Virus record (IMG/VR): IMGVR_UViG_3300034101_003479
Location: 1-64,000 of that record
Reading direction: 5' to 3' (one strand)
DNA: 64,000 nt
Source of the DNA: a virus
Shown: positions 20,165 through 63,093 of the stretch, one piece after another
How the letters are laid out: every line of letters begins with the position of its first letter
Position numbering within the stretch: the stretch's first letter is position 1
Position numbers and translations under genes: made by a program
The notes under the pieces: model-generated
What the model saw: only the letters and a program-made list of their open reading frames with translations
Databases searched by the model: none
What the model was told of the DNA's origin: nothing

Positions 20165-20176
20165 TTTTTCTCCTTG

Positions 20177-20250
20177 TGCAACAAGTAGGACTTGAACCTA
20201 CGATTACCGAATTATGAGTTCGGGGCTTTAACCAACTAAGCTATTGTTGC
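20177..20250 (-). tRNA. tRNA-Met (anticodon CAT)
   Basis: 74-base cloverleaf: acceptor GCAACAA/TTGTTGC (7 perfect pairs, discriminator A), D arm GCTT/AAGC, anticodon arm CCGAA-CTCATAA-TTCGG, five-base variable loop, T arm GTAGG/CCTAC. G1-C72 argues against an initiator tRNA. CAT could be elongator Met or, with lysidine, Ile2. No encoded CCA. Its 5' part overlaps the 3' end of the carbamoyltransferase gene by 23 bases. Confidence 0.95.
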
Positions 20251-34515: not shown

Positions 34516-37500
34516 CTTATTTCCTTTATCATTAAAGTTCCATCTTCTAGTTTAGACAAAACGGGTTTACATTTCATTCCCTCACGCATTCTGCCAAGCA
34601 CCTTTGAATACATAGTTGGGAAAGCAATTGCACGTTGCAATTCTTTATTTTTATTAGTCATAACAATGTGTGCCATTGTTTTTCCAGCTTTTGTTTTATA
34701 TGGATTAAAATTAATTACCATCATTTCATCATCTTCCATATCATATTCTTTTCTATACAGATAGTCAACAAATAGGTCTGAGCCATTGGGGTCAATTTCA
34801 TTGACCTTAACGTATCTTGCAATTCTATTATCTCCGACCAGAATAAAATACATCTGTCCTGTTTCAATTTGAGTTTGCTCATTATGAAATAATCCAATTG
34901 ATCCAGTTTCATCAACAAGCTCTACTCTAGCCCACCCAGTTCCTCTTTTTATACTTTTAACCATTCCAAATACTGGGAATGATCCTAGGTCATCAAAGTC
35001 TTGAATTGGTCTTGCTTGAGCTTTAATTCTTGGTGGCAAATCAATATTAAATGTTGGTATACCTAAGTATTCGTAATAGTTTTCTTTTTCTTTGCCAGTA
35101 CGCTTATTATCCTCAAAAGCAGCCCCACCAATACTATTAAGAGCAGAAATAGCCCTGCTGTTAATCCCACTACCCTTGGTAGACGCCTTTTGAATAAACT
35201 CCGAATAGTCTTCATACGGTCTCTTTTCTATGATTTTATTAGCTATGCTGTCCGATATAAACTTGACTTCAGCTAAGCCAAATTGAACTGCATTTTCTTT
35301 AAGAGAAAAATACAATTCTGATTCATTGATGTGAGGCAATAAAATTTTAAGATTTAATCTCTTAGCCTCAATCAAATATTCTGTTCTTTTATCTTTGTCA
35401 TTTTCGTTTTTAAGAATTGAAAAAATAAATTCAAGTGGGTAATAGTGCTTAAGCCAAGCCGTATAATAACTAAGCATGGAATAAGCAACAGCATGGCTAC
35501 GGTTAAAAGAGTAGCCAGCATGAGCCTCGAAATCATGCCATAACGCTTCGGCCTTTTTCTTAGTAATGTGTTTTGAAGCCCCATCAATAAATTGATCTTT
35601 GAACTGGTCGAATTCTTTTGCATCCTTCTTCTTTCCGATGATTTTACGAACTTTGTCAGCTTCTGACCAAGACATACCACCTAAATGTACACAAGCCTGC
35701 ATAACTTGCTCCTGATATATAATAACACCATACGTATTTTCTGTAAAAGGCTTCATAATCTCATGAACATAGCTAACGGCTTCTCGTCCATGCTTTCTAT
35801 TAATATATGAAGCTCCTACAGTATTCATTGCTCCTGGTCTAACCAAAGCATTAGATGCAGCAAGATCTTCAAATTTGTCCACACCCATTTTAATTAAAAG
35901 GTTTGTGTACGGTGTAGCTTCAGCTTGGAATACTCCCTTTGTATATCCTTCGCTTAATGTTTTATAAACATCTAGGTCGTCAAGTGGTAATTCAGACAAT
36001 ACAATTTCTTTATTGTGTCTTTCTTTGATTGCTTTTAATGTGTCTGAAATTACAGATAATGTTTTTAGTCCAAGTGCATCTAGCTTAATAAGACCAATGT
36101 CTGCGACTGTATCCATGTCATACGCTACTACTGGGATACGACCAGAAACTTTATCTTGTGCATCCTCACGAGATTCAATAGGAGCAAAATTTCTTAGATC
36201 ATCCTTTGCAACGACAACTCCAGCAGCATGAACTCCAACGCTTCTAATTTTTCCACGCAGTCTTTCTGCAAGCCACACAACTTCTGGGTACTTCATTCTA
36301 AACTCTTTTGTGTTTGGAGACTCCATAAAGTCTTCAAATGTATCAATTGATTTCATTGCACGATTTACATCCTGCAACGGAACCATAAATACACGAGCAG
36401 CATCTCTAATTACTCCCTTATCTTTAAAGTAAGTGTATGTAGAAATAGATGCCACATGCTTGAATTTCTTTTTGAGGTAATCCTTTACTTCCTTACGGCG
36501 ACGATCTTCAAAGTCTGTGTCGATATCTGGAAAGTCGTTACGTTCTGGATTAATAAATCTAAAAAATAGCAAGTCATACTCAATTGGGTCTACATCTGTA
36601 ATTCCAAGAGAGTAGCAGACCAAAGACCCAGCAGCAGAACCACGTCCTGGACCCACCATGATATTATTTTGTTTAGCCCAATTAATCATATCTGCTACCA
36701 CAAGAAAGTATGATGCAAATGATTTATCTTTAATTATAGATAACTCTTCTGCTAGCCTGTCCGTGTAGACCTGGTCCCCGTCCAGACCTAGCCTTTTAAG
36801 GCCCTCAGAGGCCATTTGAGAGAGTTTCTCGTCAGCATCCGTCTTGGGTACTGGGAGTAGGTCTAAACCGCTGTTAAAATCGTATTGGCCAATTTTATTG
36901 GCTATCTCAATAGTGTTCTCATAAATGTCTGTTCGTTTAATTCCAGATTTATTAAAGTCTGACTCTATTTCTTCCCTAGATTGGATAAATAGGTTATAGT
37001 CTTGAAAAGAGATTCTTCTATCTGGATATAGGTAGTTGAATCGATCTAGCATATTATTCATATTTCTAGACATTTCAAAGTCTGCTTCTTTATCTGATTT
37101 AGGTGATGTGGAAAGAATTAGCATGGCTTCTTCCAAAACCTTATCTTCGCCTTTAGCAAAGTGTGCATCTCCTGTGGCAACTGGCTTGATTCCAAGCTCA
37201 TCTGCCAACTCTAGCAACTTGCTATTTATTTCTTCTGGGTTGTGAGACTGTACTTCAATGTAAAAGTCTTCGCCAAAAGTTTGCTTAAAGTCCTTGAGTA
37301 TAAGTTTTGCTTCTGAGAATTCCTGGCGTTCAATAGCTTTACTAATAAGACCATTGAGGCATCCAGAAAGAACAATAATGTCTTTTGCATATTCCTTTAG
37401 AACCTCCCTATCAATTCTAGGCTTATGGTAAAACCCTTCGTTCCAAGCTAATTCTTGCAGTCTATTAATATTGCTTAGTCCGTTTTGATTTTTTGCTAAC

Positions 37501-37778
37501 AAAATAATGTGATTGTATGCCTGTATGCTTTTGTCTGTTTTAGATGATCTATCAAATCTATCTGTCGGTGATATGTATGCCTCTACTCCAAGGATTGGCT
37601 TAATACCCAATTCCTTGGCTGCAATTTGCATTTCACGATGTGATGATAGTGTACCATGATCTGTAATAGCAATTGCTGTTTGTCCAGCATCTAATGCTGC
37701 TTGGCAAAGCTCTCTAGGGGAGTTTAGACCGTCCATTAATGAGTAGTATGAGTGAACATGTAAGTGTGCAAAACTCAT
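34512..37778 (-). CDS. dnaE: DNA polymerase III alpha subunit (DnaE type)
   Basis: 1088 residues from ATG 37778 (TAATG overlap; GGGGGGAT site), in preference to an upstream start at 37796. PHP domain: AHLHVHSYYSLMDG and ITDHGTL with His/Asp metal ligands. Palm: VGPGRGSAAGSLVCY and PDIDTDFEDRR with the catalytic aspartates. Then finger regions and a C-terminal OB-fold (GMVKSIKRGTGWARVELVD). Close to the bacterial DnaE length. Replicates the phage genome; PHP proofreading is possible since the HxH motif is intact. No phage clamp or loader is visible, so the host clamp may be used. Confidence 0.95.
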   Translation of the reverse strand: MSFAHLHVHSYYSLMDGLNSPRELCQAALDAGQTAIAITDHGTLSSHREMQIAAKELGIKPILGVEAYISPTDRFDRSSKTDKSIQAYNHIILLAKNQNGLSNINRLQELAWNEGFYHKPRIDREVLKEYAKDIIVLSGCLNGLISKAIERQEFSEAKLILKDFKQTFGEDFYIEVQSHNPEEINSKLLELADELGIKPVATGDAHFAKGEDKVLEEAMLILSTSPKSDKEADFEMSRNMNNMLDRFNYLYPDRRISFQDYNLFIQSREEIESDFNKSGIKRTDIYENTIEIANKIGQYDFNSGLDLLPVPKTDADEKLSQMASEGLKRLGLDGDQVYTDRLAEELSIIKDKSFASYFLVVADMINWAKQNNIMVGPGRGSAAGSLVCYSLGITDVDPIEYDLLFFRFINPERNDFPDIDTDFEDRRRKEVKDYLKKKFKHVASISTYTYFKDKGVIRDAARVFMVPLQDVNRAMKSIDTFEDFMESPNTKEFRMKYPEVVWLAERLRGKIRSVGVHAAGVVVAKDDLRNFAPIESREDAQDKVSGRIPVVAYDMDTVADIGLIKLDALGLKTLSVISDTLKAIKERHNKEIVLSELPLDDLDVYKTLSEGYTKGVFQAEATPYTNLLIKMGVDKFEDLAASNALVRPGAMNTVGASYINRKHGREAVSYVHEIMKPFTENTYGVIIYQEQVMQACVHLGGMSWSEADKVRKIIGKKKDAKEFDQFKDQFIDGASKHITKKKAEALWHDFEAHAGYSFNRSHAVAYSMLSYYTAWLKHYYPLEFIFSILKNENDKDKRTEYLIEAKRLNLKILLPHINESELYFSLKENAVQFGLAEVKFISDSIANKIIEKRPYEDYSEFIQKASTKGSGINSRAISALNSIGGAAFEDNKRTGKEKENYYEYLGIPTFNIDLPPRIKAQARPIQDFDDLGSFPVFGMVKSIKRGTGWARVELVDETGSIGLFHNEQTQIETGQMYFILVGDNRIARYVKVNEIDPNGSDLFVDYLYRKEYDMEDDEMMVINFNPYKTKAGKTMAHIVMTNKNKELQRAIAFPTMYSKVLGRMREGMKCKPVLSKLEDGTLMIKEIR

Positions 37779-37984
37779 TAATATCCCCCCATGCATTCGT
37801 TTCTAGTATGATAAAGTCTAATCTTTGTCATAGTCTTTTTGTTTGGAGCATATAGCTCTTCTCCACAACATGCAGTTTTTAGATACCATTCTTTTGCAAA
37901 GAAATCGTAAACCATGCCCTTGTAGTTATAGTATTTATTAGCCACAAATGTTGTAAATGGATCTGGTATGTCTAAGTTAATCAT
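37778..37984 (-). CDS. Small hypothetical protein with C-x22-type Cys residues
   Basis: 68 residues; ACCGEELYAPNKKTMTKIRL with later TRNEC provides three Cys, possibly zinc. N-terminal half is aromatic (FVANKYYNYKGMVYDFF). GGCGG ribosome site. Starts about 20 bases after the tRNA-Leu. Function unknown. Confidence 0.7.
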   Translation of the reverse strand: MINLDIPDPFTTFVANKYYNYKGMVYDFFAKEWYLKTACCGEELYAPNKKTMTKIRLYHTRNECMGGY

Positions 37985-38003
37985 TTCCGCCTTTTCTTTC
38001 TAG

Positions 38004-38076
38004 TACCAAGGGTGGGATTCGAACCCACGCTTTATAAATTTTAAGTCTACCGCCTCTACCACTGGGCTACCCTGGC
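38004..38076 (-). tRNA. tRNA-Leu (anticodon TAA), short variable loop
   Basis: 73 bases: acceptor GCCAGGG/CCTTGGT (with two G-U pairs), D arm GCC/GGC, anticodon arm GTAGA-CTTAAAA-TTTAT, variable AAAGC, T arm GTGGG-TTCGAAT-CCCAC, discriminator A. The anticodon TAA reads Leu codon UUA, common in AT-rich genes. A bacterial tRNA-Leu should have a long variable arm; this one has five bases, so identity or charging is uncertain. Confidence 0.85.
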
Positions 38077-38079
38077 AGA

Positions 38080-38101
38080 GTGGGGCGGTTTCCCGCCCCA
38101 C
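38080..38101 (-). other. 9-bp hairpin with GAAA tetraloop
   Basis: Perfect 9-bp G+C-rich stem (GTGGGGCGG/CCGCCCCAC) closed by a GNRA loop, between the ssDNA-binding gene stop and the tRNA. No U run follows, so it is not a standard terminator. It could protect the mRNA end or guide tRNA processing. Confidence 0.8.
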
Positions 38102-38104
38102 CTT

Positions 38105-38770
38105 TTACCACTCTACGCTACCTGAGCCTGAAGACTGATCTTCTCCGCCTTCGCCGTTAAAAAAGGATTCTTGTTCTGTGTAGGGTAGATCACGAACTGC
38201 AACCTTTTCTAATTCGTATAATTCCAAGCTGGAAGAATCAAAAGGGGATTCATCTTTTGCTAGTGGAATTGCTGTATAGCTTGTGTCTGTTTTTGTGCCT
38301 GTACGCTTAATGCGCCACACTAAGTTTGAAATGCTACCCATTTCGCCAGCATATTCAATTAGTGTTGGGGTAATAGTCTTTCCGCTACTTCCCTGAGACA
38401 AGATGGCAACGTATGGCTCTTCTTTACCATCGTCTACAAGAACATTGATGTAAAGACGAGAACGTCCCTTCCATCCTGCCTTGTAATCCTTGCGATGTTG
38501 TTCACATCCCCAGCATTTTCCTTGATCATCAATTGTGCATAATGCTTTGCGCTTATAATCTCTTGGGTTTGTGTGTTCTACTGCAATGAACCCAAGGCTA
38601 TTTTTTTCATTATAATGTGGGGAGTCAGGATCTAATTCCTGAAGAAATCTAATCTTTACACTTTCTGAATCATCTAATTTTACCCAACGAGCTTTCGTGC
38701 CGTCTCCGCCAGATGATTGCGGTTTATCCATAACTTTATTTAAATCTTTTAGTCCTTTTACTAGACCCAT
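38105..38770 (-). CDS. ssDNA-binding protein (gp32-like)
   Basis: 221 residues. A zinc-type insert CTIDDQGKCWGCEQH, beta-rich OB-fold-like body (GRSRLYINVLVDDGKEEPY), and an acidic flexible C-terminus (EGGEDQSSGSGSVEW) typical of phage SSBs that recruit partners. Between primase and polymerase genes, so probably coats replication intermediates. The promoter and the 5' hairpin leader suggest strong expression. Confidence 0.72.
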   Translation of the reverse strand: MGLVKGLKDLNKVMDKPQSSGGDGTKARWVKLDDSESVKIRFLQELDPDSPHYNEKNSLGFIAVEHTNPRDYKRKALCTIDDQGKCWGCEQHRKDYKAGWKGRSRLYINVLVDDGKEEPYVAILSQGSSGKTITPTLIEYAGEMGSISNLVWRIKRTGTKTDTSYTAIPLAKDESPFDSSSLELYELEKVAVRDLPYTEQESFFNGEGGEDQSSGSGSVEW

Positions 38771-38791
38771 TTTTTCCTCTTTTCTATAGTT

Positions 38792-38808
38792 GATGGTATA
38801 AATCCATC
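38792..38808 (-). promoter_or_regulatory. 5'-terminal GATGG/CCATC leader hairpin
   Basis: 5-bp stem, 7-base loop, beginning four bases from the predicted start of the ssDNA-binding mRNA. Resembles the leader at 1869..1892; both are followed by CTATAG before the ribosome site. Confidence 0.5.
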
Positions 38809-38817
38809 TGTTACTTT

Positions 38818-38826
38818 ATTATATCA
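38818..38826 (-). promoter_or_regulatory. Extended -10 promoter (TGATATAAT)
   Basis: Full -10 consensus with TGn extension (-10 at 38818..38823), abutting the stop of the primase gene; start near 38811, leader about 41 bases to the ssDNA-binding gene. Confidence 0.7.
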
Positions 38827-39822
38827 CAAGCTCCAGGATTTGTATTCTATGTCAGAAACAGCATTATTTATACAATGCTTAATTTCATCCTCAGTCATAT
38901 CTCCTGCATCTTTTGCATCATTAGGGTATATCTTACCATAAGAATACGAAGCCCACAAGATGTCTTTGTTCTTTAATTTATTAGAAATAGATAGCCCTAA
39001 TTCTCTTCCAGCCTGATCTGCATCTGTCATTATAACTATTCTATTAAAGTATCTATTAAGTAGATTTAAATTATCTGTTGATATGTGTCCGCCTAAAGTT
39101 GCAATAACATTTGGAAACCCTGACTGGTGCACTCTAATTGCATCAAAGCTAGACTCAACAATGATTACTTGATCTCCAATTCTTTTTGCTCTATGAATAT
39201 TAAATAATGTTTTGTTTTTAGGAAGATTTGTACTGTTCTTAAATTTCTTTTCTAATATTGATCTGCCAACCAAACCAACTGGTATCCCGTCTGGGCTGTG
39301 TACTGGAACAATAACCATTCCTTGTGCCTCAGAGTATCCCAATTTAAAATGACTCATAGACTCTTGATTGATTCCACGAGATTCAAAGTAATCTCTAGCT
39401 GGCTTGTTTAGCGCTAGCTCTAATGACAAATCGTCTAGCTTTCTTTGATCAAACTCTATAAAGTCTGGCTTGTCCTCAAACATTTGACTTAATGCTTCGT
39501 CAAAGTTGTCTAAAGCCTGTGATTCTTTTGCAGTAATTAATCTAATGGCTTCAAAATCATTTTTATTTGCAATTCTTTTAACTAGTTGAACTATGTTTCC
39601 AGTTTCTCCGCATGAAGGATTAAAGCAAAGCCATGCCCCATTTTCTTCGCTGATATAGAAGCTTGGGCTATGTGTGTTGTTATGGAAAGGGCAATATATT
39701 ACTAGGTTATTGTTAGACTCGCTAATTATTCTTAAGCCTATTTCTTTTACTACTGACTTAATGTGTTTTGGTGCATACTGCGTGGTATTAGCTTTCCCTG
39801 TGTTATTCCCTCTGAGTGCCAT
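38824..39822 (-). CDS. dnaG: DNA primase (DnaG type)
   Basis: 332 residues from ATG 39822 (AAGGA site); the frame is open to 39873. N-terminal zinc-binding domain CPFHNNTHSPSF with CFNPSCG; TOPRIM core with IVESSFDAIRV (Glu) and IVIMTDADQAGRE (DxD). Makes RNA primers. It lacks a long C-terminal helicase-binding domain (bacterial DnaG is about 600). Starts within the preceding 102-residue gene (73-base overlap). Confidence 0.92.
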   Translation of the reverse strand: MALRGNNTGKANTTQYAPKHIKSVVKEIGLRIISESNNNLVIYCPFHNNTHSPSFYISEENGAWLCFNPSCGETGNIVQLVKRIANKNDFEAIRLITAKESQALDNFDEALSQMFEDKPDFIEFDQRKLDDLSLELALNKPARDYFESRGINQESMSHFKLGYSEAQGMVIVPVHSPDGIPVGLVGRSILEKKFKNSTNLPKNKTLFNIHRAKRIGDQVIIVESSFDAIRVHQSGFPNVIATLGGHISTDNLNLLNRYFNRIVIMTDADQAGRELGLSISNKLKNKDILWASYSYGKIYPNDAKDAGDMTEDEIKHCINNAVSDIEYKSWSL

Positions 39823-40058
39823 GCCTTTTTCCTTCCTGTGTATACACCATGGAGTGTCATTAAGAACCTCCATGTTTGTCCTGTAAATTCTACCGAAAAT
39901 GCTGTGTCTATGTCAAGTACTCTTGAATATCCTTTATCCCTCATTTGATGAGTTAGCATATTTTCATATTGATTTCTAATTCTAATCATGTCTGAGTCGT
40001 CTTTAAACTCGACATCAATTTGAAATCTTTTAATTGGCTTGTGGTGGTACGTAGTCAT
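39750..40058 (-). CDS. Hypothetical replication-region protein
   Basis: 102 residues, starting MTTYHHKPIKRFQIDVEF, with DSDMIRIRNQYENMLTHQMR and TLHGVYTGRKKAW. I recall related hypotheticals between helicase and primase genes of actinobacterial phages. The C-terminal quarter overlaps primase in another frame and may be less conserved. Function unknown. Confidence 0.7.
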   Translation of the reverse strand: MTTYHHKPIKRFQIDVEFKDDSDMIRIRNQYENMLTHQMRDKGYSRVLDIDTAFSVEFTGQTWRFLMTLHGVYTGRKKAWHSEGITQGKLIPRSMHQNTLSQ

Positions 40059-41268
40059 ATAGCTCTTTAATAATACCTCTATTGATATCCCAATCTAAAT
40101 GAAAGGCAAACTCATGTCCATGTCTATTTTTTCTAGAAACAATTTCAATCAAATTTGTTCCTGGGTGCCTGTGTACGGCAAGTGCCATATCTGCATCGTA
40201 TTCAATTGCTTTTGACCAAGCAACCTGAGACATCATTGGCGGATTATCTTGATCTGATATGTCATCTGCGGTTGCTGCTGTAATATCAATAACTGGTATG
40301 TTGTTTGTCACAGCCAACAACTTGAATTCACGAGATACGTTTCTATTTCTTTCTACTTCAGAATTGCTTCTTTTGTTATCATTGAATAGTTGATGGTAAT
40401 CTAAGATAACCAAATCTGGCTTGTGCTGATCAATCTTTCCTTGAATTGTAGCAGGTGTAACATCGCCAGCTCCTTCATTAGAAACTAAAACAAAACTATT
40501 TTTTCCTTCAAATTTCTTTTGGCCCCATGACTTGAAGTCATCAATATTGATATCTCCTTTAGACAAATCGCTTGCCTTAAATAAACCTGACCCCAGCATT
40601 GTATAAATACGATCACGCATATTTTCTGGGGACATTTCTAGGGAGATAATCATTGGCTTAAATCCTTGCTCCCAAGCTTTACATGCTAGGTAGGAAGTAA
40701 ACCATGTCTTACCTTTTCCTGGCCAACCAATTGCAACAATTAAATGACCTGGAGCCATACCAGTTGGGTACGCTGTATCTATTGCTTGGAATCCAGTTTT
40801 AATTCCAGGGCTTCCGCCCATTACTGCTGACCTATCCTTTACTGACATAAAGTGTCGCTCTGCTGCATCTAGGTCTGTTACATCTAAGTCTCTTACGTTA
40901 TTAGTAAATCTAGACAGACCAGCAAGTTTGCTTTGCATATCTGATAGGACTCTGGAGGCTGCATCTTCTTTAAGTGCTGCTCCTCCTTGTAACATAATTG
41001 ATTTTAGCCTTGAAGACAAATACTCATTTTTTAATTTGTCTAGGTAATAACCAGTCTCAGCTTTAATATTTATGTCTGGGTCAAAGTCTTTAAACTTTTC
41101 TTGTAGGATTCCAATCTCTGGAACTGCCTTAAACTTATAGTAGTAAGATTTTAATCCGTCCCAAACATCTTTGTGTGAAGTAAATAAGTCATCAACATTG
41201 TCTGCAAGTAAAGTGCTGATGTCTTTATTCTTACAAACTGCTGATATTACTGTTGCCTCTGTATTCAC
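40030..41268 (-). CDS. dnaB: Replicative DNA helicase (DnaB type)
   Basis: 412 residues. N-terminal helical domain, then RecA-like motor: Walker A AIGWPGKGKTW, MIISLEMSPENMRDR (H1a-like), Walker B LVILDYHQLF, and SKAIEYDADMALAVHR (Q/arginine region). Hexameric helicase unwinding the fork. The upstream gene (105 residues) could be its loader. Start overlaps the loader-like gene by 4 bases. Confidence 0.93.
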   Translation of the reverse strand: MNTEATVISAVCKNKDISTLLADNVDDLFTSHKDVWDGLKSYYYKFKAVPEIGILQEKFKDFDPDINIKAETGYYLDKLKNEYLSSRLKSIMLQGGAALKEDAASRVLSDMQSKLAGLSRFTNNVRDLDVTDLDAAERHFMSVKDRSAVMGGSPGIKTGFQAIDTAYPTGMAPGHLIVAIGWPGKGKTWFTSYLACKAWEQGFKPMIISLEMSPENMRDRIYTMLGSGLFKASDLSKGDINIDDFKSWGQKKFEGKNSFVLVSNEGAGDVTPATIQGKIDQHKPDLVILDYHQLFNDNKRSNSEVERNRNVSREFKLLAVTNNIPVIDITAATADDISDQDNPPMMSQVAWSKAIEYDADMALAVHRHPGTNLIEIVSRKNRHGHEFAFHLDWDINRGIIKELYDYVPPQAN

Positions 41269-41582
41269 TCTTCACCCTCAACTAATCTCTTTGTGGCTTC
41301 TTGTAAAGCCTTTCTATTTTGCTTATCTTTTGCTACTTCTCTTTGCATTATATCAATTTTATCAAAGTTAAAAAAGAAGAATTGAATTGGGTGCCCATAT
41401 TTACCAGTGGTAAAGTAGTATTCCAACAATTCTTTTGCACGAGCATATCCTACACTATCAATGACATCTTGCATAGCCCATTTTTCTCTATACTTATTAA
41501 GAAAGGGGGTTTTGCCATATTTTTCCTGATACATATTTTGATACATGCTTAAAAGAATATATGGCTCTTTGCTATTTGCCAC
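41265..41582 (-). CDS. Possible helicase loader-like protein
   Basis: 105 residues, helical: KEPYILLSMYQNMYQEKYGK, KWAMQDVIDSVGYARAKELL, YYFTTGKYGHPIQFFFFNFD. Location immediately before the DnaB-type helicase is where phage loaders occur; there is no AAA+ motif. Similar hypotheticals in other phages come to mind. Role inferred from position only. Confidence 0.68.
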   Translation of the reverse strand: MANSKEPYILLSMYQNMYQEKYGKTPFLNKYREKWAMQDVIDSVGYARAKELLEYYFTTGKYGHPIQFFFFNFDKIDIMQREVAKDKQNRKALQEATKRLVEGEE

Positions 41583-41778
41583 TCTTTAGCTCATCTTCTA
41601 TTTCTTGTGTCTTCTGGATAAGCTTGTCTTCGACAAACTTATAGACACGTTCAGTCGCTATATCAACAGTTTCACCTTGCCTGACATCATCTTCAATCCC
41701 GATGCCTATCTTAATGCTCTCGTAGTTTCCTAGGTTTCTAGTAAAAGATAGGTCTACCTTAACTCTTGTCTCTGTCAT
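41572..41778 (-). CDS. Small hypothetical protein in replication module
   Basis: 68 residues: strand-rich first half (VKVDLSFTRNLGNYESIKIG) and a helical second half (VDIATERVYKFVEDKLIQKT). No motif known to me. Overlaps the next gene by 11 bases and begins within the ATGA of the preceding zinc-finger gene. Confidence 0.68.
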   Translation of the reverse strand: MTETRVKVDLSFTRNLGNYESIKIGIGIEDDVRQGETVDIATERVYKFVEDKLIQKTQEIEDELKSGK

Positions 41779-41888
41779 TTCTTATGCTCCGCCCTTAAAT
41801 GTCTTTGAAGCGTATCGCTTGCAAATATTCCCCAACGCACTTCTATTTCTTTACTACACAGATCGCATATAATAAATCTACTAGACAC
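41775..41888 (-). CDS. C2H2-like zinc-finger peptide (37 residues)
   Basis: GTG at 41888 overlaps the upstream TAG (TAGTG); the stop overlaps the next ATG as ATGA. CDLC ... RHLRAEH (two Cys, two His) has the spacing of a small zinc finger. Fits exactly between its neighbours. Confidence 0.7.
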   Translation of the reverse strand: MSSRFIICDLCSKEIEVRWGIFASDTLQRHLRAEHKK

Positions 41889-42367
41889 TAATCCGCCTTC
41901 CAAACTGGAACAAACCCGCCTTCTGTCTTAGTATACAATATCATATTGTTTTTGAGAAGTGCCTTTAGCTCTGCTTTGGATGGTATATTTTTAGAGTATC
42001 CAGCCTCTAATATATATTCGTGTATTTTAAATATATTAGATTCACTAAACATAAATTTATACCATTTACTTTCTGGCTTGCTTATGGGATAAATTCTTTG
42101 AGGCTGACTGATCTTACCTTGCAGAATGTATTCTTCTAGCGTTACCTTGTGTCTGCCTAGTATTTCTCCAACCTGGACCATGGTATAAGCATTTTCCATA
42201 TTTTTTTCTACATCGCTAAATGAATATAGAACTCTTTTTTTATCTAAATAGCACCAGGCTACTAGCTCGTCTTTAGATCTTGATGATCTAATTACTTTAT
42301 GGAGTTTATTATTTAAGAAGAAATAGAGAAACTTTTTGCGAGTTCCTGGTCTTTTCTTTCCAGCCAT
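41888..42367 (-). CDS. DNA-binding HTH protein
   Basis: 159 residues. Basic N-terminus (MAGKKRPGTRKKFLYF) and a central MerR/excisionase-like HTH (AYTMVQVGEILGRHKVTLEE followed by YILQGKI). Probably a regulator or DNA architectural protein of the replication region. Similar hypothetical DNA-binding proteins occur in actinobacterial phages. Overlaps the 61-residue zinc-ribbon gene by 55 bases in a different frame. Confidence 0.72.
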   Translation of the reverse strand: MAGKKRPGTRKKFLYFFLNNKLHKVIRSSRSKDELVAWCYLDKKRVLYSFSDVEKNMENAYTMVQVGEILGRHKVTLEEYILQGKISQPQRIYPISKPESKWYKFMFSESNIFKIHEYILEAGYSKNIPSKAELKALLKNNMILYTKTEGGFVPVWKAD

Positions 42368-42498
42368 TTACCAAACCTACTTGTCTCTTTATTAACCATC
42401 CATCTTTTTCCGCATAGCATACAGAAAAGCTCAACATGTAGTTTTTGAGAAAAAACTCTATCAACAAAAACTCTTCCATTACATTTTTTACACCACAT
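42313..42498 (-). CDS. Zinc ribbon protein (61 residues)
   Basis: CKKC (3-6) and CMLC (26-29) knuckles with FVDRVFSQKLHVELF between, then a helical basic tail. ATG at 42498 overlaps the upstream stop. Its last 18 codons overlap the HTH gene in another frame; both look coding. Confidence 0.7.
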   Translation of the reverse strand: MWCKKCNGRVFVDRVFSQKLHVELFCMLCGKRWMVNKETSRFGKWLERKDQELAKSFSISS

Positions 42499-43313
42499 TA
42501 TAAAGCAAACAACTTTCCGTCAACCATACATGTATAATTTGGAGATACGTGAATCATTTGTACGTGTGGGTACTTTCCATTTTCAATATGAGCAATAGCA
42601 AATCCCTTTTGCCAATCATGGTGTTGAGTGTATTTCATTCCTGGACCTTTTTCGTCACACATGTGACCAATCTCATATCCTCTAAGAGTTTCGCCTTTCC
42701 CGTTATTTCTAAGTTCATAGGTTACCATATGAGAAGCAATTCTATGAGAATGTCCTCTAATTAATGAAACCTGCATATCTTCCATATCTTTTCTTACTGC
42801 TCCAGTTGCTGATATTGAAAGTCCGTGGTGAACATGGATATCTCCAAAACGTTTCTTAGGCAAACTGTCGTAATATATATAATCATATCCCAAAGAATCT
42901 AAACTCCATAAAGCTTCTGGGGTAACATGCTTGGCATACTCTGGTATCTTCTTGTCCAGATAATCAAAAATTCTAATGTCATGATTTCCTAACGCTGAAA
43001 ACAATTGTGCTTTTGGAAGCATCTTTCTTGTCTTAGCATAAAATTCACGAGCACCGCTTGCCTCTAACTTCATGTCTTTAAGCATCAGCTCTAAGTCATT
43101 TATAACATCATCATTCTTATATGCCTTTAAAAATTCTGTTGGCTTTCCCTCAGTATATTTACTGTAGCATGCTTGGTCGTCTGTGTCGCCCAGGTAGTCT
43201 ACTACGTCTGGCTTAAACCACTTCATGACCTTAAACCAAAGCTCAATCATCTTGTCATCCTGATATGGAAATTGTTGATCTGATGACAACATCCACTTTA
43301 AATCGTTAGACAT
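42498..43313 (-). CDS. Metallophosphoesterase
   Basis: 271 residues. Calcineurin-like motifs in order: SSDQQFPYQD (Asp; the usual D-x-H is altered), VDYLGDTDD (GD), SALGNHDIR (GNHD), HHGLS and RGHSHR (GHxH). The first motif's changed His could affect one metal. Could be a DNA or nucleotide phosphatase/nuclease. First gene after the control point at 43314..43400, so probably first of the replication operon. Confidence 0.85.
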   Translation of the reverse strand: MSNDLKWMLSSDQQFPYQDDKMIELWFKVMKWFKPDVVDYLGDTDDQACYSKYTEGKPTEFLKAYKNDDVINDLELMLKDMKLEASGAREFYAKTRKMLPKAQLFSALGNHDIRIFDYLDKKIPEYAKHVTPEALWSLDSLGYDYIYYDSLPKKRFGDIHVHHGLSISATGAVRKDMEDMQVSLIRGHSHRIASHMVTYELRNNGKGETLRGYEIGHMCDEKGPGMKYTQHHDWQKGFAIAHIENGKYPHVQMIHVSPNYTCMVDGKLFAL

Positions 43314-43330
43314 GCATTATTCCTTAAATT

Positions 43331-43355
43331 AAAAAAGTCACGTTTTCGTGACTTT
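43331..43355 (-). terminator. Rho-independent terminator
   Basis: 9-bp perfect stem AAAGTCACG/CGTGACTTT, 4-base loop, ending in a run of six U in the minus-strand transcript. It ends tail-gene transcription, or attenuates the promoter just upstream of it. Confidence 0.92.
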
Positions 43356-43356
43356 G

Positions 43357-43379
43357 TATGCTACAAAAATTGTAGCATA
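43357..43379 (-). promoter_or_regulatory. 10-bp palindrome over -10 (operator candidate)
   Basis: TATGCTACAA/TTGTAGCATA with a 3-base centre; it covers the -10 (TACAAT) of the promoter at 43369..43396. A second palindrome AACACT-tgac-AGTGTT (43385..43400) is centred on the -35. Typical of a repressor or activator site pair. Confidence 0.6.
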
Positions 43380-43396
43380 TTGTTAAACACTGTCAA
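43369..43396 (-). promoter_or_regulatory. Promoter TTGACA-N16-(TGC)TACAAT
   Basis: -35 TTGACA (43391..43396), extended -10 TGCTACAAT (-10 at 43369..43374). The transcript would start near 43362 and meet the terminator at 43331..43355 before the metallophosphoesterase. Confidence 0.72.
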
Positions 43397-43399
43397 GTG

Positions 43400-43834
43400 T
43401 TAAATGTCTTTTAGTTGTGCTGCGATCCAGTTTATTTTTATGGATCCCGTGTAGGCTAGACTTGTTGTTACATAAATCTTGCCATTTAACGTATTTGGTG
43501 AAACTACTGCTGCTACTGAAACCGTTCCCATTTTTGAAGTTAAAGCTTCTCCAACAGAGGCAGTAAATGATATATCAACAGCGGGACTAAATGAAGAGCT
43601 AAATGTAACTGCATGGGCAGCTGACGGCACATTTGCCTTGCCACTCAATGGGACTGTTTCTGTATCTGAGTCGACGATGGCAACTCTATTTGTTCCGCTA
43701 GAGTCTTTTGTAGCATTTAATAATGACTTTGATGTATTAAATACATTTGTTAGATTAGTTTGTAATTGATTTAAATCATTTGGATCTAGTGGGGCACCCT
43801 CGTTAAAAGTTACCGACTTCCATGTCTCTGCCAT
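43400..43834 (-). CDS. Tail or virion structural protein (144 residues)
   Basis: Starts MAETWKSVTFNEGAPLDPND, a common start of phage tail/baseplate components, followed by beta-rich Ser/Thr/Val sequence without Cys. Last gene of the tail module. Probably a fibre or decoration subunit. AGGAGA upstream. Confidence 0.65.
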   Translation of the reverse strand: MAETWKSVTFNEGAPLDPNDLNQLQTNLTNVFNTSKSLLNATKDSSGTNRVAIVDSDTETVPLSGKANVPSAAHAVTFSSSFSPAVDISFTASVGEALTSKMGTVSVAAVVSPNTLNGKIYVTTSLAYTGSIKINWIAAQLKDI

Positions 43835-44232
43835 TATAAGTTTTCTCCTAGATCATGAGCATTTGATTCCGCTTCGCTTACCTCTATGGCTTTTGATCGA
43901 TCTAAGCCATATCTATTAAACGAGTCTGGGTCTACCACATGCCTCTTTTTATTTTGAGATATTAAATACATTTTACCATCTGCTATGTTTTTTATCAAGG
44001 CACCGTCTCTAAACCCCAGCTTTCCAGCAAGTTTAATTAGCGATAATGATTCCTCTGTTCCATTTACTGTTGTAAATGACCAAGACTTAGAGGCTCTATC
44101 AGAAATCAGCTTATACCTCTTGTTGTCCTTAATCCAGTAAGTTGCCTTATCTGTCTTAACCGCAATCCCAGAAGGGAAATTAGTTGGAGAGGTTACTAAG
44201 TGAGTCTGAGTACTCTTGAATAGCTTTTTCAT
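43834..44232 (-). CDS. Tail-associated protein with KRYxLxS-type domain
   Basis: 132 residues from ATG 44232; the frame extends to 44307, but that part overlaps the coiled-coil gene and reads unnatural. Domain: KATYWIKDNKRYKLISDRA, KLGFRDGALIKNIADGKMY, NKKRHVVDPDSFNRYGL, a repeated pattern like host surface-protein repeats with K-R-x-V-x-D/S-x-x-x-F. May attach to the tail tip or host wall. Start uncertain. Confidence 0.65.
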   Translation of the reverse strand: MKKLFKSTQTHLVTSPTNFPSGIAVKTDKATYWIKDNKRYKLISDRASKSWSFTTVNGTEESLSLIKLAGKLGFRDGALIKNIADGKMYLISQNKKRHVVDPDSFNRYGLDRSKAIEVSEAESNAHDLGENL

Positions 44233-44359
44233 GATCCTGCTTTTCATTAATAAGTTGAGTAATTTCTGCACGTAATACTGCAATCTGAGTTTCATAATTA
44301 GATACAAGTTCTCCTATGCGCTGTTGTAGTGCTGTTATTACTAGTTGTGTTTTATCCAA
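44180..44359 (-). CDS. Small coiled-coil protein (59 residues)
   Basis: TTG start at 44359, the only candidate after an upstream in-frame stop; TAA at 44180. VITALQQRIGELVSNYETQI and AEITQLINEKQDHEKAIQEY are clear heptads. Third in a row of small coiled-coil genes. Overlaps the following gene in a different frame by 53 bases. Ribosome site weak (GGGAT). Confidence 0.65.
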   Translation of the reverse strand: MDKTQLVITALQQRIGELVSNYETQIAVLRAEITQLINEKQDHEKAIQEYSDSLSNLSN

Positions 44360-44366
44360 TTTATCC

Positions 44367-44594
44367 CTATTCTGTTAGAGCGTTGACTCTTGCCAACTCT
44401 GACTCTAGTGCTGAGATCTGCCCATCAACTTCATCCATTTGTTCATCAAGCCCATTTATTGCAGCTTCTGACGGATTGTTTCTGGAGTTCTCTTTTAAAA
44501 TATCTATCTCTAAATTATACTTTGTATAGTTAAGATTTCTAATATGCGAAGATATAATTTGAGCCTTTTCTTCTTTTGTTAAATTAATAGTCAT
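44367..44594 (-). CDS. Small coiled-coil protein (75 residues)
   Basis: Begins MTINLTKEEKAQIISSHIRN, with heptads and a C-terminal DEQMDEVDGQISALESELAR. Paralogous in layout to 44625..44846 (KIAIIDAHITEL; LQIATLESLKS). Own extended -10 promoter and AGGAG site. Might trimerise as a fibre base or chaperone. Confidence 0.72.
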   Translation of the reverse strand: MTINLTKEEKAQIISSHIRNLNYTKYNLEIDILKENSRNNPSEAAINGLDEQMDEVDGQISALESELARVNALTE

Positions 44595-44608
44595 TTTTCT
44601 CCTTTCTT

Positions 44609-44617
44609 ATTATATCA
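44609..44617 (-). promoter_or_regulatory. Extended -10 promoter (TGATATAAT)
   Basis: Full -10 with TGn extension; followed within 10 bases by AGGAG and the ATG of the 75-residue gene. Similar to the element at 44873. Confidence 0.65.
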
Positions 44618-44624
44618 TTTAAGT

Positions 44625-44846
44625 TTAATTTGGTAAATTAGATTTTAAAGATTCTAGCGTAGCAATCTGTAAATCGTAATCTCCAATTATTCTAACAATG
44701 TTTTCATAAATTTCATTATCTGTGCTAGATATAGTTTGTAGCTCTATTCTTCTAATTTCATGACTAAACTGTTGAGCTTTTAGCTCAGTAATATGGGCAT
44801 CAATTATTGCTATTTTTTGATCATCATTTAAGTCAGTGCCTGCCAT
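44625..44846 (-). CDS. Small coiled-coil protein (73 residues)
   Basis: MAGTDLNDDQKIAIIDAHIT start and DYDLQIATLESLKSNL end; helical throughout. Same length and layout as the following 75-residue protein, so probably a tandem duplicate. Downstream of the long tail fibre gene with its own promoter. Function unknown. Confidence 0.72.
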   Translation of the reverse strand: MAGTDLNDDQKIAIIDAHITELKAQQFSHEIRRIELQTISSTDNEIYENIVRIIGDYDLQIATLESLKSNLPN

Positions 44847-44872
44847 TTATTTACCTTTCTTATACTTGTTCC

Positions 44873-44900
44873 ATTATATCATTTTTATCTATTTTGTAAA
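44873..44900 (-). promoter_or_regulatory. Promoter TTTACA-N16-(TGA)TATAAT
   Basis: -35 TTTACA (44895..44900), extended -10 TGATATAAT (-10 at 44873..44878), leader about 20 bases with GAAAGG before the 73-residue gene. Confidence 0.75.
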
Positions 44901-44907
44901 GACCATT

Positions 44908-47886
44908 TTATACGCTGGCTGAGAATCCAGATGAATATGTTTGGCCATTAGTTCCTAATATTGTTGCCTGGTAACTTCCCCATCTACCTGCGGTAGTTGT
45001 AGAGGTATCTCCATCCGTAGTTCCTATTCTATAGTTCCACGGTATACCGTTAATATTTCTAAAACTCGTTGTATATGACCTTGTTCCGCTAGCAATAATT
45101 GTTCCACTCGAACTTCCAGAACGAATTCTCCATGGATAACTAGGGTTTCCAGAGGTACTTCCACTCCAAGAAGCATTATCCCATCCCCAGTTAAAAGTGG
45201 ATCCAGATCTAAAGAAATATGGAGGATTATTGTTTAATGAAATTGATGGGGTGACAAATACGGCATTCCATATTGCTGTTGCTGTTGCATTTGCAGACCC
45301 AAATGTATAAGAGCCTCCTCCAGAATAGGTAGAGCCTCCAATATTCCATCCTCCAAAGCTAAATCCAGATCGTGTTCCAGCTCCTGATGCCAATGTAATT
45401 GTCGCACCGCTTGCTCCAGGTTGAGGTAATGGAGTAGTAGATCCGCCATTTGCAGAATATGTAAGAGTATAAGTAACAACCGTAGAAGCTGTTCCAGTCA
45501 CAGTTGTTGATGCGGTATTATATCCAGAAACAGATTTATTAACTGTTATTGTAGAGGACTGGGCGGATGATAATCCTGATGCCGTGACCGCACCAGTCGA
45601 AGAGTTTACGCTTCCAGAACCAGCGGTTGCTGAAACATATGAGTACGAGGCTTCTGTTTGTGCGCCAGAATTTATAGAAGCCGTCCACCCACCAGCTGCA
45701 GAAGTTGCAGATCCATATGAAAATGCAACTGCATCAGCATTTGCTGAAGTAATCTGATTGCCAAAATAATAATATGTAGTTCCATTGGTTCCCACGACTG
45801 TGTCTCTTACTGTAAATACATAGGGGACTCCAGCGGGATCAGAAGGAACTATTGCGTATGGATTGGCTGTTCTAAATGATGATAATGTATTTCCTGACGG
45901 AGACACAAGGTTTGATGTATTTGTAGAATAAAGTAGTACGGATGTTACTGATGCCGCATTATTATAAGTTCCAGCAGACCAAGTAATGCTATCAAGATAC
46001 TTAACGATAGATGTAGAAAATGTATTAGTTGCTCTTGCTGTTGGTGCAGAGTTTTGTGAAACAGCTGAGGATGTTACAGTAAATGGAAATCCAGCACTCC
46101 AAGAGCTTGCTACTGATGACGGACCTACACTAGTTTCTCCAGTAGAGGCAACAGATCTAACATACATATAATATGTAAATCCTGCAGAAGATGGACCTGT
46201 TGAGTCTGTTACTGGACTAGAAGAACCTGATCCGTCTGGTGTATATTGTACAGTTGTCGACAATGATGAAGCCGTTGTCCAATATATTTGATAAGCTGGA
46301 CCAGATCCTCCAGAAAAATAAGCTGTTACTGGTGCCCCTTCAATTCCAGAAGAAACAAATGAAACTGTTGGTGCTGTTAAAACATTTTGAATTGAAACAG
46401 ATGCGGTGCCAATTGAATAATCTGGTATTGTTTCTACATAGGCGGTGTAGTTTCCAGTTGAGTTATAAGTATTTGATAAACTATACGTTGGCTTGTTGGT
46501 TCCATATGACGGGTAAATCCAACCACTACTACTTCCGTCTCCATAAACAACTCTATATGCATAAGGGTAGCTATTTAATCCAGAAGGATAACTTTGAATT
46601 ATTCCTGAAAACGTTACAGTTGTTCCTGGGCCTCCAGATGTTGGTGTAGCGGTAATAGTACCCAAAGAAGTTGGGTCAATATCCCACCAGTCAAATGAGA
46701 AGCTAGTAGAAACTGTATCTCCAGGAACCCAATAGTATCTGGTTCCACCTATCACTGCACTTATTTCATATTCCCACGTCCATCTTGAAATACCACCATC
46801 ATATGTTGATCCGTTAAAGATTTCTGGGATTGAAAAAACATCATATAGAAAAGCATTACCACCAGATATTGTAACATTGCTTATGTTTCCAACATTATTA
46901 TAATCTGACTCATATACAATCCATGCTGCAGATGCTGTTGCTACCGCCTGATTATCTGGGTTCCAATAAGCTCCTGTTTGATTATTCAACACTCTATATC
47001 TCACTCTAAATGTTGTTGAGGAGTTTACCCCAGAAACTTTCCATTTTAATTTTAATGTGGTAGCTGTTACTAAATTACCTCTATTGTTAAAACCACTGTC
47101 TCCGTTTGAATCTTCAAAAACAACATCTGATATTCCTATTGGCTGACCAATTGTGGATGTCTGATTACTCGTTGATGTTGTTTCTCCGCCTGTATTTGTA
47201 GCAGTTACAGATACCCTTAGTGTATGACCAACGTCTGTGCTTTGAATAGTGTATGTAGAACTAGATCCAAGATCATCTCCAGTAGCATCTCCCCAGTACC
47301 ATCTATAAGTAAAATTATCTGGTGCTGTGTCCCCTGTATTGTCTGTAGTATTCTTCCAGTACGTTCCGAGTGTTGTTAAGGCTGTTACCGTTGAGTTTGC
47401 TGCTAATGTACCACTAATTGCTGGTAATGTAAGTGCAACTGGTTTATACTTTGTTATTTTTACTGCTTTTGCGGCAGCTTCGTTAAAATTGGTTCCATCA
47501 GATGCTCTTACTGTTACAGTAATCCACTTATCGTCATCGTCAGAAACAGTTTTATATGAAGTAGAGGTGGCTGCCGTAATGTTTTCAAATGGTCCAGTTT
47601 CATTATCTGACCTGCTCCATTGTCTTGTATATGAAGTGGCACCGTCCCAGCTTCCATTTGTTGAGTCATAGGTGTCAAAAAGTTTTCCACCTTCTCGTGG
47701 GGTTATCACAGGAGATGAGTTTAATGAGGGACCAGAACCAGCAAATACTTTAGTCCAAGCCCCATTTCTTTTTACATATGCAGTAGCAAGGGCTGTCCAG
47801 GCTCCGTTCCTTTTTAGATACATTTTTTTAATCTGTACCCATTTAGAAACTCCATTAACAGATTTTTTTATAAATGCTACTGGCAT
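44908..47886 (-). CDS. Large tail fibre-like protein (PKD and InlB-repeat-like domains)
   Basis: 992 residues. N-terminus has twin repeats MYLKRNGAWTALATAYVKR and NGAWTKVF; then Ig/FN3-like repeats; a PKD-like domain (GGPGTTVTFSG, VVYGDGSSSGW, STGNYTAYVE); an InlB B-repeat-like segment (LTYSANGGSTTP, FGGWNIGGSTYSGGGSYTF); and a C-terminal module ending GTNGQTYSSGFSASV that recurs in 51043..51843. Likely the receptor-binding or adhesive fibre. No chaperone domain seen. Confidence 0.75.
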   Translation of the reverse strand: MPVAFIKKSVNGVSKWVQIKKMYLKRNGAWTALATAYVKRNGAWTKVFAGSGPSLNSSPVITPREGGKLFDTYDSTNGSWDGATSYTRQWSRSDNETGPFENITAATSTSYKTVSDDDDKWITVTVRASDGTNFNEAAAKAVKITKYKPVALTLPAISGTLAANSTVTALTTLGTYWKNTTDNTGDTAPDNFTYRWYWGDATGDDLGSSSTYTIQSTDVGHTLRVSVTATNTGGETTSTSNQTSTIGQPIGISDVVFEDSNGDSGFNNRGNLVTATTLKLKWKVSGVNSSTTFRVRYRVLNNQTGAYWNPDNQAVATASAAWIVYESDYNNVGNISNVTISGGNAFLYDVFSIPEIFNGSTYDGGISRWTWEYEISAVIGGTRYYWVPGDTVSTSFSFDWWDIDPTSLGTITATPTSGGPGTTVTFSGIIQSYPSGLNSYPYAYRVVYGDGSSSGWIYPSYGTNKPTYSLSNTYNSTGNYTAYVETIPDYSIGTASVSIQNVLTAPTVSFVSSGIEGAPVTAYFSGGSGPAYQIYWTTASSLSTTVQYTPDGSGSSSPVTDSTGPSSAGFTYYMYVRSVASTGETSVGPSSVASSWSAGFPFTVTSSAVSQNSAPTARATNTFSTSIVKYLDSITWSAGTYNNAASVTSVLLYSTNTSNLVSPSGNTLSSFRTANPYAIVPSDPAGVPYVFTVRDTVVGTNGTTYYYFGNQITSANADAVAFSYGSATSAAGGWTASINSGAQTEASYSYVSATAGSGSVNSSTGAVTASGLSSAQSSTITVNKSVSGYNTASTTVTGTASTVVTYTLTYSANGGSTTPLPQPGASGATITLASGAGTRSGFSFGGWNIGGSTYSGGGSYTFGSANATATAIWNAVFVTPSISLNNNPPYFFRSGSTFNWGWDNASWSGSTSGNPSYPWRIRSGSSSGTIIASGTRSYTTSFRNINGIPWNYRIGTTDGDTSTTTAGRWGSYQATILGTNGQTYSSGFSASV

Positions 47887-47895
47887 TCTGTTTCC

Positions 47896-49959
47896 TTAGT
47901 TATTCGTGCTAAATGCAATATCGCCATTTTGTCCAACATTCTGCCAAGATGAACCAAGGATTGTTGTAGAAGAAGATCCTGTAGAAAAAAAAGCTCTTCC
48001 TCTAGTAATTTTGCCGCTTGCATCGGCTTGCAAAACTGCTGGCTGGTCTGAAAAGCTTGTTGTCTCGTGTCTATTTGTCCAGTTATCCCCAAAACCATTC
48101 ATATAAAAAGCTTTTTCAGTGCTATTAGATCTTACTTCAAAACTTATATATCCCCCAGGATAATTTCCATATATAGTTGCGTCCCCAGAAGCGGTTCCTG
48201 TTTGCAGCCATAGTTCAGAATAGTATCCAGAGGTTGGTACTCCACCTTTTTCAATTGAGTCTGTAATTTTAAGGGTTTTTGATGTATTTGTAATGGTTGT
48301 GGTTCCGCTTACCCAGGTTTCATTAATAGGGTCATAGTATCCAGTAGACACTTCATCTGTCCACGTATCAAATGCTGGAATCATGCTATAGTTTGCTTCA
48401 GTAAAATTAATTTTTGTAGAAGTATCTGAAGCTTCGCTGTAGTCTCCGCTCTGCCCCCCAGTTCCAACCTGTCTTCCACTTACGTTAATTGTTGTACCAG
48501 TTATTGTTGATGAATTAACTTCACCGTTTGTTAAAGTGCCACCACTCATCGTTAGATTTCCAGTAGAAGTGTTTAGTGTAAATTTACCACTTGCGGATCC
48601 ACCATTATAATGAGCTATAGAATCTGGCGTCAATCTTATATGTGCGCCAGACGCACTTCCAATAAACAAAGCAGGATCATATCCGCCATTTAGCTTAATT
48701 GTCCCTGTTGCGTTTTGCAAGTAGCTTCCAGCAATTGTCCACCCAGCAATTTCTCCAACTGTAGCTTTTAAATATCCGCTTCTGCTTACGCTAAATGGAG
48801 CACTTAAAAAAGTTGTATTTCCTAGCCATATGCCTGTTGAAGGCTCTGCTTTAAATATGTCGTTACCAGATCCAATGGACAAGTCTCCAGTAAATGTTCC
48901 AGATCCTTTTATTGATAAAGTTCCAGTTGTTCCGCTTGTTAGGTATTCTAATAACTTTGTTGTTCCATCTGTTCCATAAATAATAAATGGTGAAGAGCTT
49001 CCTGAGATAACAACTCTTTGCCCTCCACTAACTCCAGCAGTTATTGAGGCTTCAGCCGTTAGTATGCCAGTGCTAATTTCGCTAGCTGGTAGCTTAGAAA
49101 CTGTAATCGGATTTCCGCCTGCAGATATTGGCTGTCCATTTGCAACCTTATTTGCATTTACCGTGTCTATTTTAATATAGTATGGAGTTCCGTATTGCAG
49201 TGTAGCGCCAGATGATTTATCAATAACTGTTCCAACACCTATTGAAACTTTATTTGACCCATTGGCAAAATTTAATGTGTGAACCCAGTTGTTGTCACTT
49301 ACAGTAAAATCTGGGGTAGTACCGATGAAAACTTTAGCCCCAGCAAAGCTGCCAGAAGTAAAGTCTTCAAATCCGCCATTGCCATTTGATTTCTTTCCGT
49401 TCCATTCTACTATTATAGAAGCAAGCCCTGATGTAACTGTTGGTGCATATGGATCTTCTGGTTCTAAAACTGACTGACCAGATTTTGTAACTAAAATACT
49501 TCTTGCATCGCTTACTGCAGATTTAGTTCCGTAGTTTGATATTGCATAAAGAGCTACAGCGTATTGACCTGCTGGTGCAGCTATTGTCTGTGTTCCTGCA
49601 ACCTTGAAGCTGCCAGCTGCCTTTGTTCCATCAAATGGAGCTCCATCTATAAATATATCAACTCTATCTACATTTGTTATTGGCTTTCCAGATTTATCGT
49701 TTCCGTTCCATGTTATCTTAATGAATCCATCATCGCCCACTACGTCTGTTAAAGATAAATTAGGGCTTCCTGGAAGAGTTTCTCCTGGGGTTACAAGAAG
49801 TCTAGATGCCGACCACAGGCCAAAAGTTCCATCTTTATATTTGTATCTAAATTGAATTGGATATGTTTCGTTTACATTTAGGTCTGTTACCGTTACAATA
49901 AAATAGTTTCCGTCTTCTACTGCAACGGAATTGTCTATTAACAAATCCTGATAAGTCAT
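47896..49959 (-). CDS. Minor tail / fibre protein with FN3-like domains
   Basis: 687 residues. N-terminal FN3-like modules (YPIQFRYKYKDGTFG, GFIKITWNGNDKSGKPI), a central Gly/Ser/Thr beta-helix-like region (GTLSIKGSGTFTGDLSIG; GEIAGWTIAG), and a C-terminal domain (YSELWLQTGTASGDATIYG). Order fits baseplate-attached side fibres. Begins one base before the previous gene ends. Receptor role inferred. Confidence 0.72.
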   Translation of the reverse strand: MTYQDLLIDNSVAVEDGNYFIVTVTDLNVNETYPIQFRYKYKDGTFGLWSASRLLVTPGETLPGSPNLSLTDVVGDDGFIKITWNGNDKSGKPITNVDRVDIFIDGAPFDGTKAAGSFKVAGTQTIAAPAGQYAVALYAISNYGTKSAVSDARSILVTKSGQSVLEPEDPYAPTVTSGLASIIVEWNGKKSNGNGGFEDFTSGSFAGAKVFIGTTPDFTVSDNNWVHTLNFANGSNKVSIGVGTVIDKSSGATLQYGTPYYIKIDTVNANKVANGQPISAGGNPITVSKLPASEISTGILTAEASITAGVSGGQRVVISGSSSPFIIYGTDGTTKLLEYLTSGTTGTLSIKGSGTFTGDLSIGSGNDIFKAEPSTGIWLGNTTFLSAPFSVSRSGYLKATVGEIAGWTIAGSYLQNATGTIKLNGGYDPALFIGSASGAHIRLTPDSIAHYNGGSASGKFTLNTSTGNLTMSGGTLTNGEVNSSTITGTTINVSGRQVGTGGQSGDYSEASDTSTKINFTEANYSMIPAFDTWTDEVSTGYYDPINETWVSGTTTITNTSKTLKITDSIEKGGVPTSGYYSELWLQTGTASGDATIYGNYPGGYISFEVRSNSTEKAFYMNGFGDNWTNRHETTSFSDQPAVLQADASGKITRGRAFFSTGSSSTTILGSSWQNVGQNGDIAFSTNN

Positions 49960-63046: not shown

Positions 63047-63071
63047 ATGAAAAGCCCCCATTTCTGGGGGC
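63047..63071 (-). terminator. Rho-independent terminator after major tail gene
   Basis: 7-bp GCCCCCA/TGGGGGC stem with GAAA loop (63054..63071), followed by UUUUCAUUU. Limits readthrough so the major tail protein can be made in excess of downstream proteins. Confidence 0.9.
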
Positions 63072-63093
63072 CTTTCTAATTTAATAAATTAAA

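Follow-up and report, generated by a model that had tools for sequence, protein, structure and literature searches.

In lambda, the strong promoter pR' is followed soon after its start point by the terminator tR', and the downstream genes depend on read-through by Q antitermination. The put RNA of HK022 consists of two neighbouring stem-loops by an early promoter, lies wholly in its own transcript and suppresses termination (PMC9378689). In Tn916, terminator T1 insulates the replication and transfer genes from upstream transcription, with the promoter of the element itself also upstream of T1, and canT, a long antiterminator RNA of up to 452 nt, lies between promoter and terminator (PMC11658703). 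The early promoter Pleft of the mycobacteriophages L5 and D29 gives rise to a non-coding RNA of ~500 nt, and the transcript drops sharply before the coding genes (PMC5712189). Little is known about how transcription is controlled in the phages that infect freshwater actinobacteria or in the large phages of Streptomyces and Rhodococcus, and a compact element that recurs at one and the same operon boundary in all these groups offers a directly testable way in. We describe such an element from the window, as we call the whole stretch of 64,000 nucleotides that was analysed and that belongs to an 85,870-base virus record. A description of this composite element in these phages was not found in the open-access literature, subscription papers being largely outside the scope of the search.

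Promoter and terminator ahead of the replication genes

All genes around the site lie on the minus strand. The replication operon is opened by a metallophosphoesterase (MPE) gene (phrog_221, 42498..43313) with its ATG at 43313 and a ribosome-binding site AAGGA at 43321..43325 as read from the sequence, followed by a Zn-ribbon-like ORF (phrog_12850), a HTH_17/MerR-like protein (phrog_9440, 41888..42367) and the genes for a DnaB helicase, a DnaG-type primase, an SSB and a DNA polymerase. The earlier note had placed the site at the boundary between late and replication genes, and the gene order of annotated relatives agrees, as it runs from minor tail genes through MPE, HTH gene, DnaB helicase, primase and SSB to DnaE. 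The named relatives are Rhodococcus and Streptomyces phages, which share the gene order and reach up to 59% identity in the MPE, and phrog_9440 is conserved across 132 records of phages of these two genera. For this HTH protein no solved structure was found. Relatives of the MPE gene were not found in bacterial genomes either and we therefore assign no host; a gene for a WhiB-like transcription regulator at 10396-10737 (minus strand) is consistent with an actinophage. The minus strand also carries a Nol-like carbamoyltransferase gene (20231-21673), an Hsp20-like gene (17561-17965), a tRNA-Met(cat) (20176-20250) and a tRNA-Leu(taa) (38003-38076), the last one between the SSB and DNA polymerase genes, and these two tRNAs were the only matches to known RNA families in the window. 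The short gene just upstream of the element (43400-43834, minus strand), whose stop codon at 43400 lies just before the TTGACA hexamer, is highly divergent among close relatives, often with an NWIA-like end, and could encode an exchangeable tail-tip or receptor-binding protein.

The promoter proposed in the earlier note runs on the minus strand from 43396 to 43369 and consists of the −35 hexamer TTGACA (43391..43396), a 16-nt spacer ending in TATGC, the TG extension and TACAAT (43374..43369), the extended −10 TGC-TACAAT covering 43369..43377. With two such hexamers, a spacing within 16–18 nt and the optional TG extension it is of the sigma-70/sigma-A type, and its score of 11/12 is among the best in 36000..50000. 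The start of transcription is predicted at 43362, 7 nt past the −10. Behind TACAAT follow the segment TTTTTGTAGCATAC and then hairpin B (43331..43355, minus strand), a putative intrinsic terminator by its fold and conservation, in which AAAGTCACG-AAAA-CGTGACTTT forms a stem from 43355 to 43334 and six T end at 43331. Its folding energy is −10.8 kcal/mol (z −4.6), and a G+C-containing hairpin with a U tract directly after it is the form of an intrinsic (Rho-independent) terminator. With a start near 43362 the stem would begin at about +8, and an RNA of ~32 nt would be released. The promoter's own predicted transcript folds into hairpin B alone, and RNA arriving from upstream folds into two hairpins 1 nt apart (−21.4 kcal/mol, z −6.4). 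The attenuation also suggested before, in its form with alternative RNA folds, gains no support from this geometry, since only ~7 nt of the own transcript precede the stem, and classical attenuation with a leader peptide was rejected for the same reason and because no ORF fits and no alternative fold exists.

The coding strand of the 85.9-kb record has only three strong hairpin-plus-T inter-operon terminators, of which hairpin B is one, and a fourth candidate at 1301. Two near-identical terminators of the form AGGCCCCC...GGGGGCTTTTCATTTG lie in the structural-gene region of the same record at 63051-63073 and 67081-67106 (both minus strand). Neither the one at 67106 nor the one at 63073 has such a promoter in front of it, and at 67106 the terminator comes first and is followed by a promoter-like TTTTCA-N17-TATAAT, which is the conventional order. 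Further copies of the element were not found in the same genome.

Conservation in close relatives and in other phage families

Among 572 viral contigs with a close MPE relative 80 were kept, and a second query added 80 that overlap with these. A pattern-free set of 66 distinct upstream regions was fetched through the downstream gene alone. Promoter and terminator are both strongly conserved in this set, as TTGAC...TANNNT is present in 65 of the 66 regions (56 of them with the TG extension as well) and a GTCACG-type hairpin in 50, all of these 50 being followed by five to seven T and 44 by exactly six. A larger set combined the gene-found loci with loci found by the hairpin pattern, and among its 139 distinct upstreams the promoter was found in 138, the terminator in 126 and a promoter followed by a terminator in 121, compared to 2 of 695 shuffled sequences. 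The spacing is nearly constant, with the stem beginning 12–14 nt past the −10 in 109 cases. Searched alone, the hairpin pattern gave at least 120 occurrences. Among the matches listed, 117 are directly preceded by the promoter, and all except L114 and L136 stand in front of the MPE gene or a truncated MPE start. Identity between phages is 0.985/0.973 in the stem, values inflated by a stem set that was partly chosen by the stem pattern, 0.38 in the spacer, 0.50 in the loop and 0.60 at third codon positions. None of 798 stem cells is unpaired, and in 114 relatives, among them loci retrieved with the stem pattern, the stem is fully paired with a T run of 5–7.

Some lineages deviate from this layout. 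The hairpin occurs without a U tract in a group with GGCCATGA...TCATGGCC, in L083 and L090 and in the HNH-bearing L015, L016 and L032, and the group of L035 and L037 shows a promoter without a clear hairpin. Lineages that lack the U tract or have the promoter only are mainly those with an HNH endonuclease gene upstream. A hairpin that served the late genes alone should be replaced by another terminator upstream wherever it is missing, but in the hairpin-less lineages examined (L035, L026, L070 and others) a simple scan found no such substitute, which is weak evidence. An HNH endonuclease gene repeatedly adjoins the MPE gene upstream (L015, L016, L032, L035 and L037, and from Streptomyces phages L222, L307-L311 and L314), and behind such genes a non-homologous promoter is found with or without a hairpin.

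Streptomyces phages show the same promoter-terminator layout built from unrelated sequences, located ahead of the MPE gene or of the nearby HTH gene. The Loccivirinae with an upstream HNH gene (TunaTartare, Sham, Moab, Patelgo, Annadreamy, Comrade and Gilson) carry it before the MPE gene, with a TTGAC-type promoter-like sequence, 13–17 nt and then a G+C-rich hairpin of unrelated sequence whose T run is weaker; the layout is absent in Faust, BillNye and Wakanda. In the Boydwoodruffvirinae (Birchlyn, Karimac, Wofford, Jay2Jay, Mildred21, BlueOtter and NootNoot) the layout precedes the HTH gene and comprises a weak −35, TGC-TATACT and, after ~10–13 nt, CCCCTGCG...CGCAGGGG. Weaselvirus and Trinavirus have TATAAT or TATACT 2–3 nt before a hairpin ahead of the HTH gene, a gap so short that the start is predicted to lie inside the left arm of the hairpin. 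What the sequence shows is the promoter, the terminator with its fold, and how these parts are ordered, spaced and conserved.

Palindromes over the promoter

According to the earlier note two inverted repeats cover the promoter, and their conservation in relatives had been named there as a test; the repeat over the −10 is kept and the one over the −35 is not. The former, dyad A, was located exactly and is the perfect inverted repeat TATGCTACAA-TTT-TTGTAGCATA at 43357..43379, with 10-nt arms, a 3-nt loop and no mismatch. It covers the −10 and the predicted start, its left arm being upstream of the latter, and at ≤3 mismatches it is single in the window, barring its own opposite-strand reading. 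Its arms pair (G-U allowed) at 7 or 8 of 8 positions in 47 of 70 distinct segments, where ~3 are expected with the right side shuffled, and they pair perfectly in 28 of 71 compared to 12.6 when right sides are re-dealt among the sequences (maximum 21 in 2000). In 47 of 58 sequences a left-arm T or C finds its matching A or G on the right side, and T-A/C-G swaps of both arms coincide in ~6 tree-independent pairs (sign test p ~0.03, the limit for six pairs). Judged by these comparisons, dyad A is a real, old and separately evolved part of the element, and error-driven perfecting of inverted repeats in replication could be the source of the co-variation between its arms. A similar dyad is present in the Boydwoodruffvirinae of Streptomyces, among which Wofford shows ATGCTAT-N7-ATAGCAT over the −10, with a total length of 21 bp that the commonest freshwater form also has, and a double hairpin of −26.5 kcal/mol.

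The co-variation speaks for the proposed operator, and two observations speak against it. Firstly, the arm spacing among the relatives is 3, 5, 6 or 7 nt, a variation that dimeric operators seldom show and that a hairpin readily tolerates. Secondly, the HTH protein phrog_9440, as part of the same operon a candidate regulator, shows no supported link to the dyad: phages with the same HTH recognition region have a TA dyad (L251), a CG dyad (L254) or none (L302), and an identical region goes along with a perfect dyad in L152 and 5/8 pairing in L101. As the state of the dyad is independent of the recognition region, dyad A was rejected as operator of this protein; another binding protein is possible. 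From its sequence, dyad A would be either an operator or a hairpin confined to read-through RNA from upstream, located beside the terminator. An antisense promoter from the mirrored −10 was discarded, as by hand inspection many relatives have lost the final T of the mirrored hexamer.

The second repeat, AACACT-TGAC-AGTGTT over the −35, lies at 43386..43401, one base away from where it had been placed, and occurs once in the window at ≤3 mismatches, about chance level. It is not conserved, and a function for it was rejected because the arms of 110 distinct pairs from relatives match each other no better than after re-dealing, which makes the perfect match in the window a probable coincidence.

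Proposed passage through the terminator and comparison with known systems

Our main reading, to which we give a probability of about 0.5, is that the terminator close to the promoter acts as a gate of the replication operon and at the same time halts read-through from the late genes. In a large group of actinobacterial viruses the order of promoter before terminator has been kept through deep evolution, which suggests that the replication genes are probably gated by passage through the terminator and not by the promoter alone. From the arrangement of the element we infer that transcription starts and stops here, that expression of the operon is limited by the terminator and that the amount of read-through is under regulation. 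The strong housekeeping-sigma promoter would be followed by the intrinsic terminator ~7 nt past the start point, and RNA polymerase coming from the late (tail) genes would halt at hairpin B. Most of the polymerase starting at the promoter would also halt there and release the ~32-nt RNA, so that the replication operon would be fed by the fraction that reads through. This fraction might itself set the level of the operon, or an antitermination step might raise it. The antitermination suggested in the earlier note is possible at this site and, as hairpin B alone can form in the own transcript, it would need a protein or the polymerase leaving the promoter. No antitermination or Q-family protein was recognised among the ~50 window proteins scanned, a set lying outside the tail-region proteins and the last 22 kb. 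We regard it as rather unlikely, though conceivable, that the element is an actinophage-wide gate of the replication operon, at which a phage antitermination factor loads on the −10 dyad during promoter escape and takes the polymerase past the terminator a few tens of bases further on. If true, actinophages would have a Q-like switch without a recognised Q protein and with the shortest promoter-to-terminator distance of its kind. Some lineages speak against a gate, as they lack the U tract or a clear hairpin, and so do the Rhodococcus relatives, where the hairpin lies 2–3 nt past the −10 and the own transcripts would be without part of the stem.

These Rhodococcus phages, in which the predicted start is inside the hairpin, fit better to a passive insulator, the alternative that survives best and that we consider somewhat unlikely. 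Here hairpin B would be the terminator of the late operon, largely escaped by polymerase from the own promoter, whose RNA is still very short. In the Rhodococcus version escape would follow from an RNA that is without the lower left arm, and dyad A would strengthen the termination of read-through RNA alone. Dyad A can fold as RNA in read-through transcripts alone, 0–3 nt from the terminator stem, its loop length varies and core deviations in its right arm are mostly G-U wobbles. The hairpin also lies precisely on the border between late and replication genes, in a genome that has few terminators and a single coding strand. However, placing the terminator before the promoter, as happens at 67106, would be a simpler way to the same end, and the fixed spacing seen in three groups would not be needed. 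The two readings also differ in their meaning: polymerase that needs help past the terminator would point to an unrecognised antitermination system in these phages, and polymerase that escapes unaided to a compact insulator exempting its own promoter.

That the hairpin is commoner than the U tract, and that the predicted RNA of the Rhodococcus versions starts inside the stem, could also be explained by a 5' stabiliser, that is, a hairpin near the 5' end which shields the replication mRNA from decay and whose U tract is incidental. We find this improbable, as a stabiliser needs no U tract and all GTCACG-type gene-found relatives have one, nearly always of six U. Even less probable is the tiny RNA product of the earlier note, for which the ~32 nt would act in trans as a small RNA. 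Its predicted length stands, small-RNA genes are likewise built from a strong promoter and a terminator, and the stem sequence is conserved beyond pairing, but among 77 distinct elements the loop takes 32 forms and the RNA is also variable at its unpaired 5' end, which argues against a base-pairing RNA, and the element is always bound to the start of the same operon. A chance neighbourhood of promoter-like and terminator-like sequences, which region-wide are no commoner than in shuffles, is refuted by a conservation that extends over >100 distinct relatives and to further phage families, and has a negligible probability.

Among the described systems the element resembles lambda pR'-tR' in having a terminator soon after the promoter. 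It differs in that the terminator is only ~7 nt past the start, the replication operon takes the place of the late genes and a dyad lies over the −10, and neither a Q-like protein, among the ~50 window proteins scanned, nor a Q-binding element was identified. With HK022 put it shares paired stem-loops beside a promoter and terminators ahead of early phage genes, but it does not possess two stem-loops of the put kind, because the first one needs upstream RNA and the second one is the terminator. Like Tn916 T1, hairpin B would be an insulating terminator downstream of the own promoter, whereas there is no room here for an antiterminator RNA between the two. The likeness to Pleft of L5 and D29 is loose and is limited to an early actinophage promoter with a transcript that drops before the genes, as the Pleft RNA of ~500 nt is distant from the MPE gene order and has no evident stem-loop terminator. 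Early terminators behind promoters are known from lambda pR', HK022 put, Tn916 T1/canT and, in a loose sense, the Pleft RNA, but none of them has the geometry seen here.
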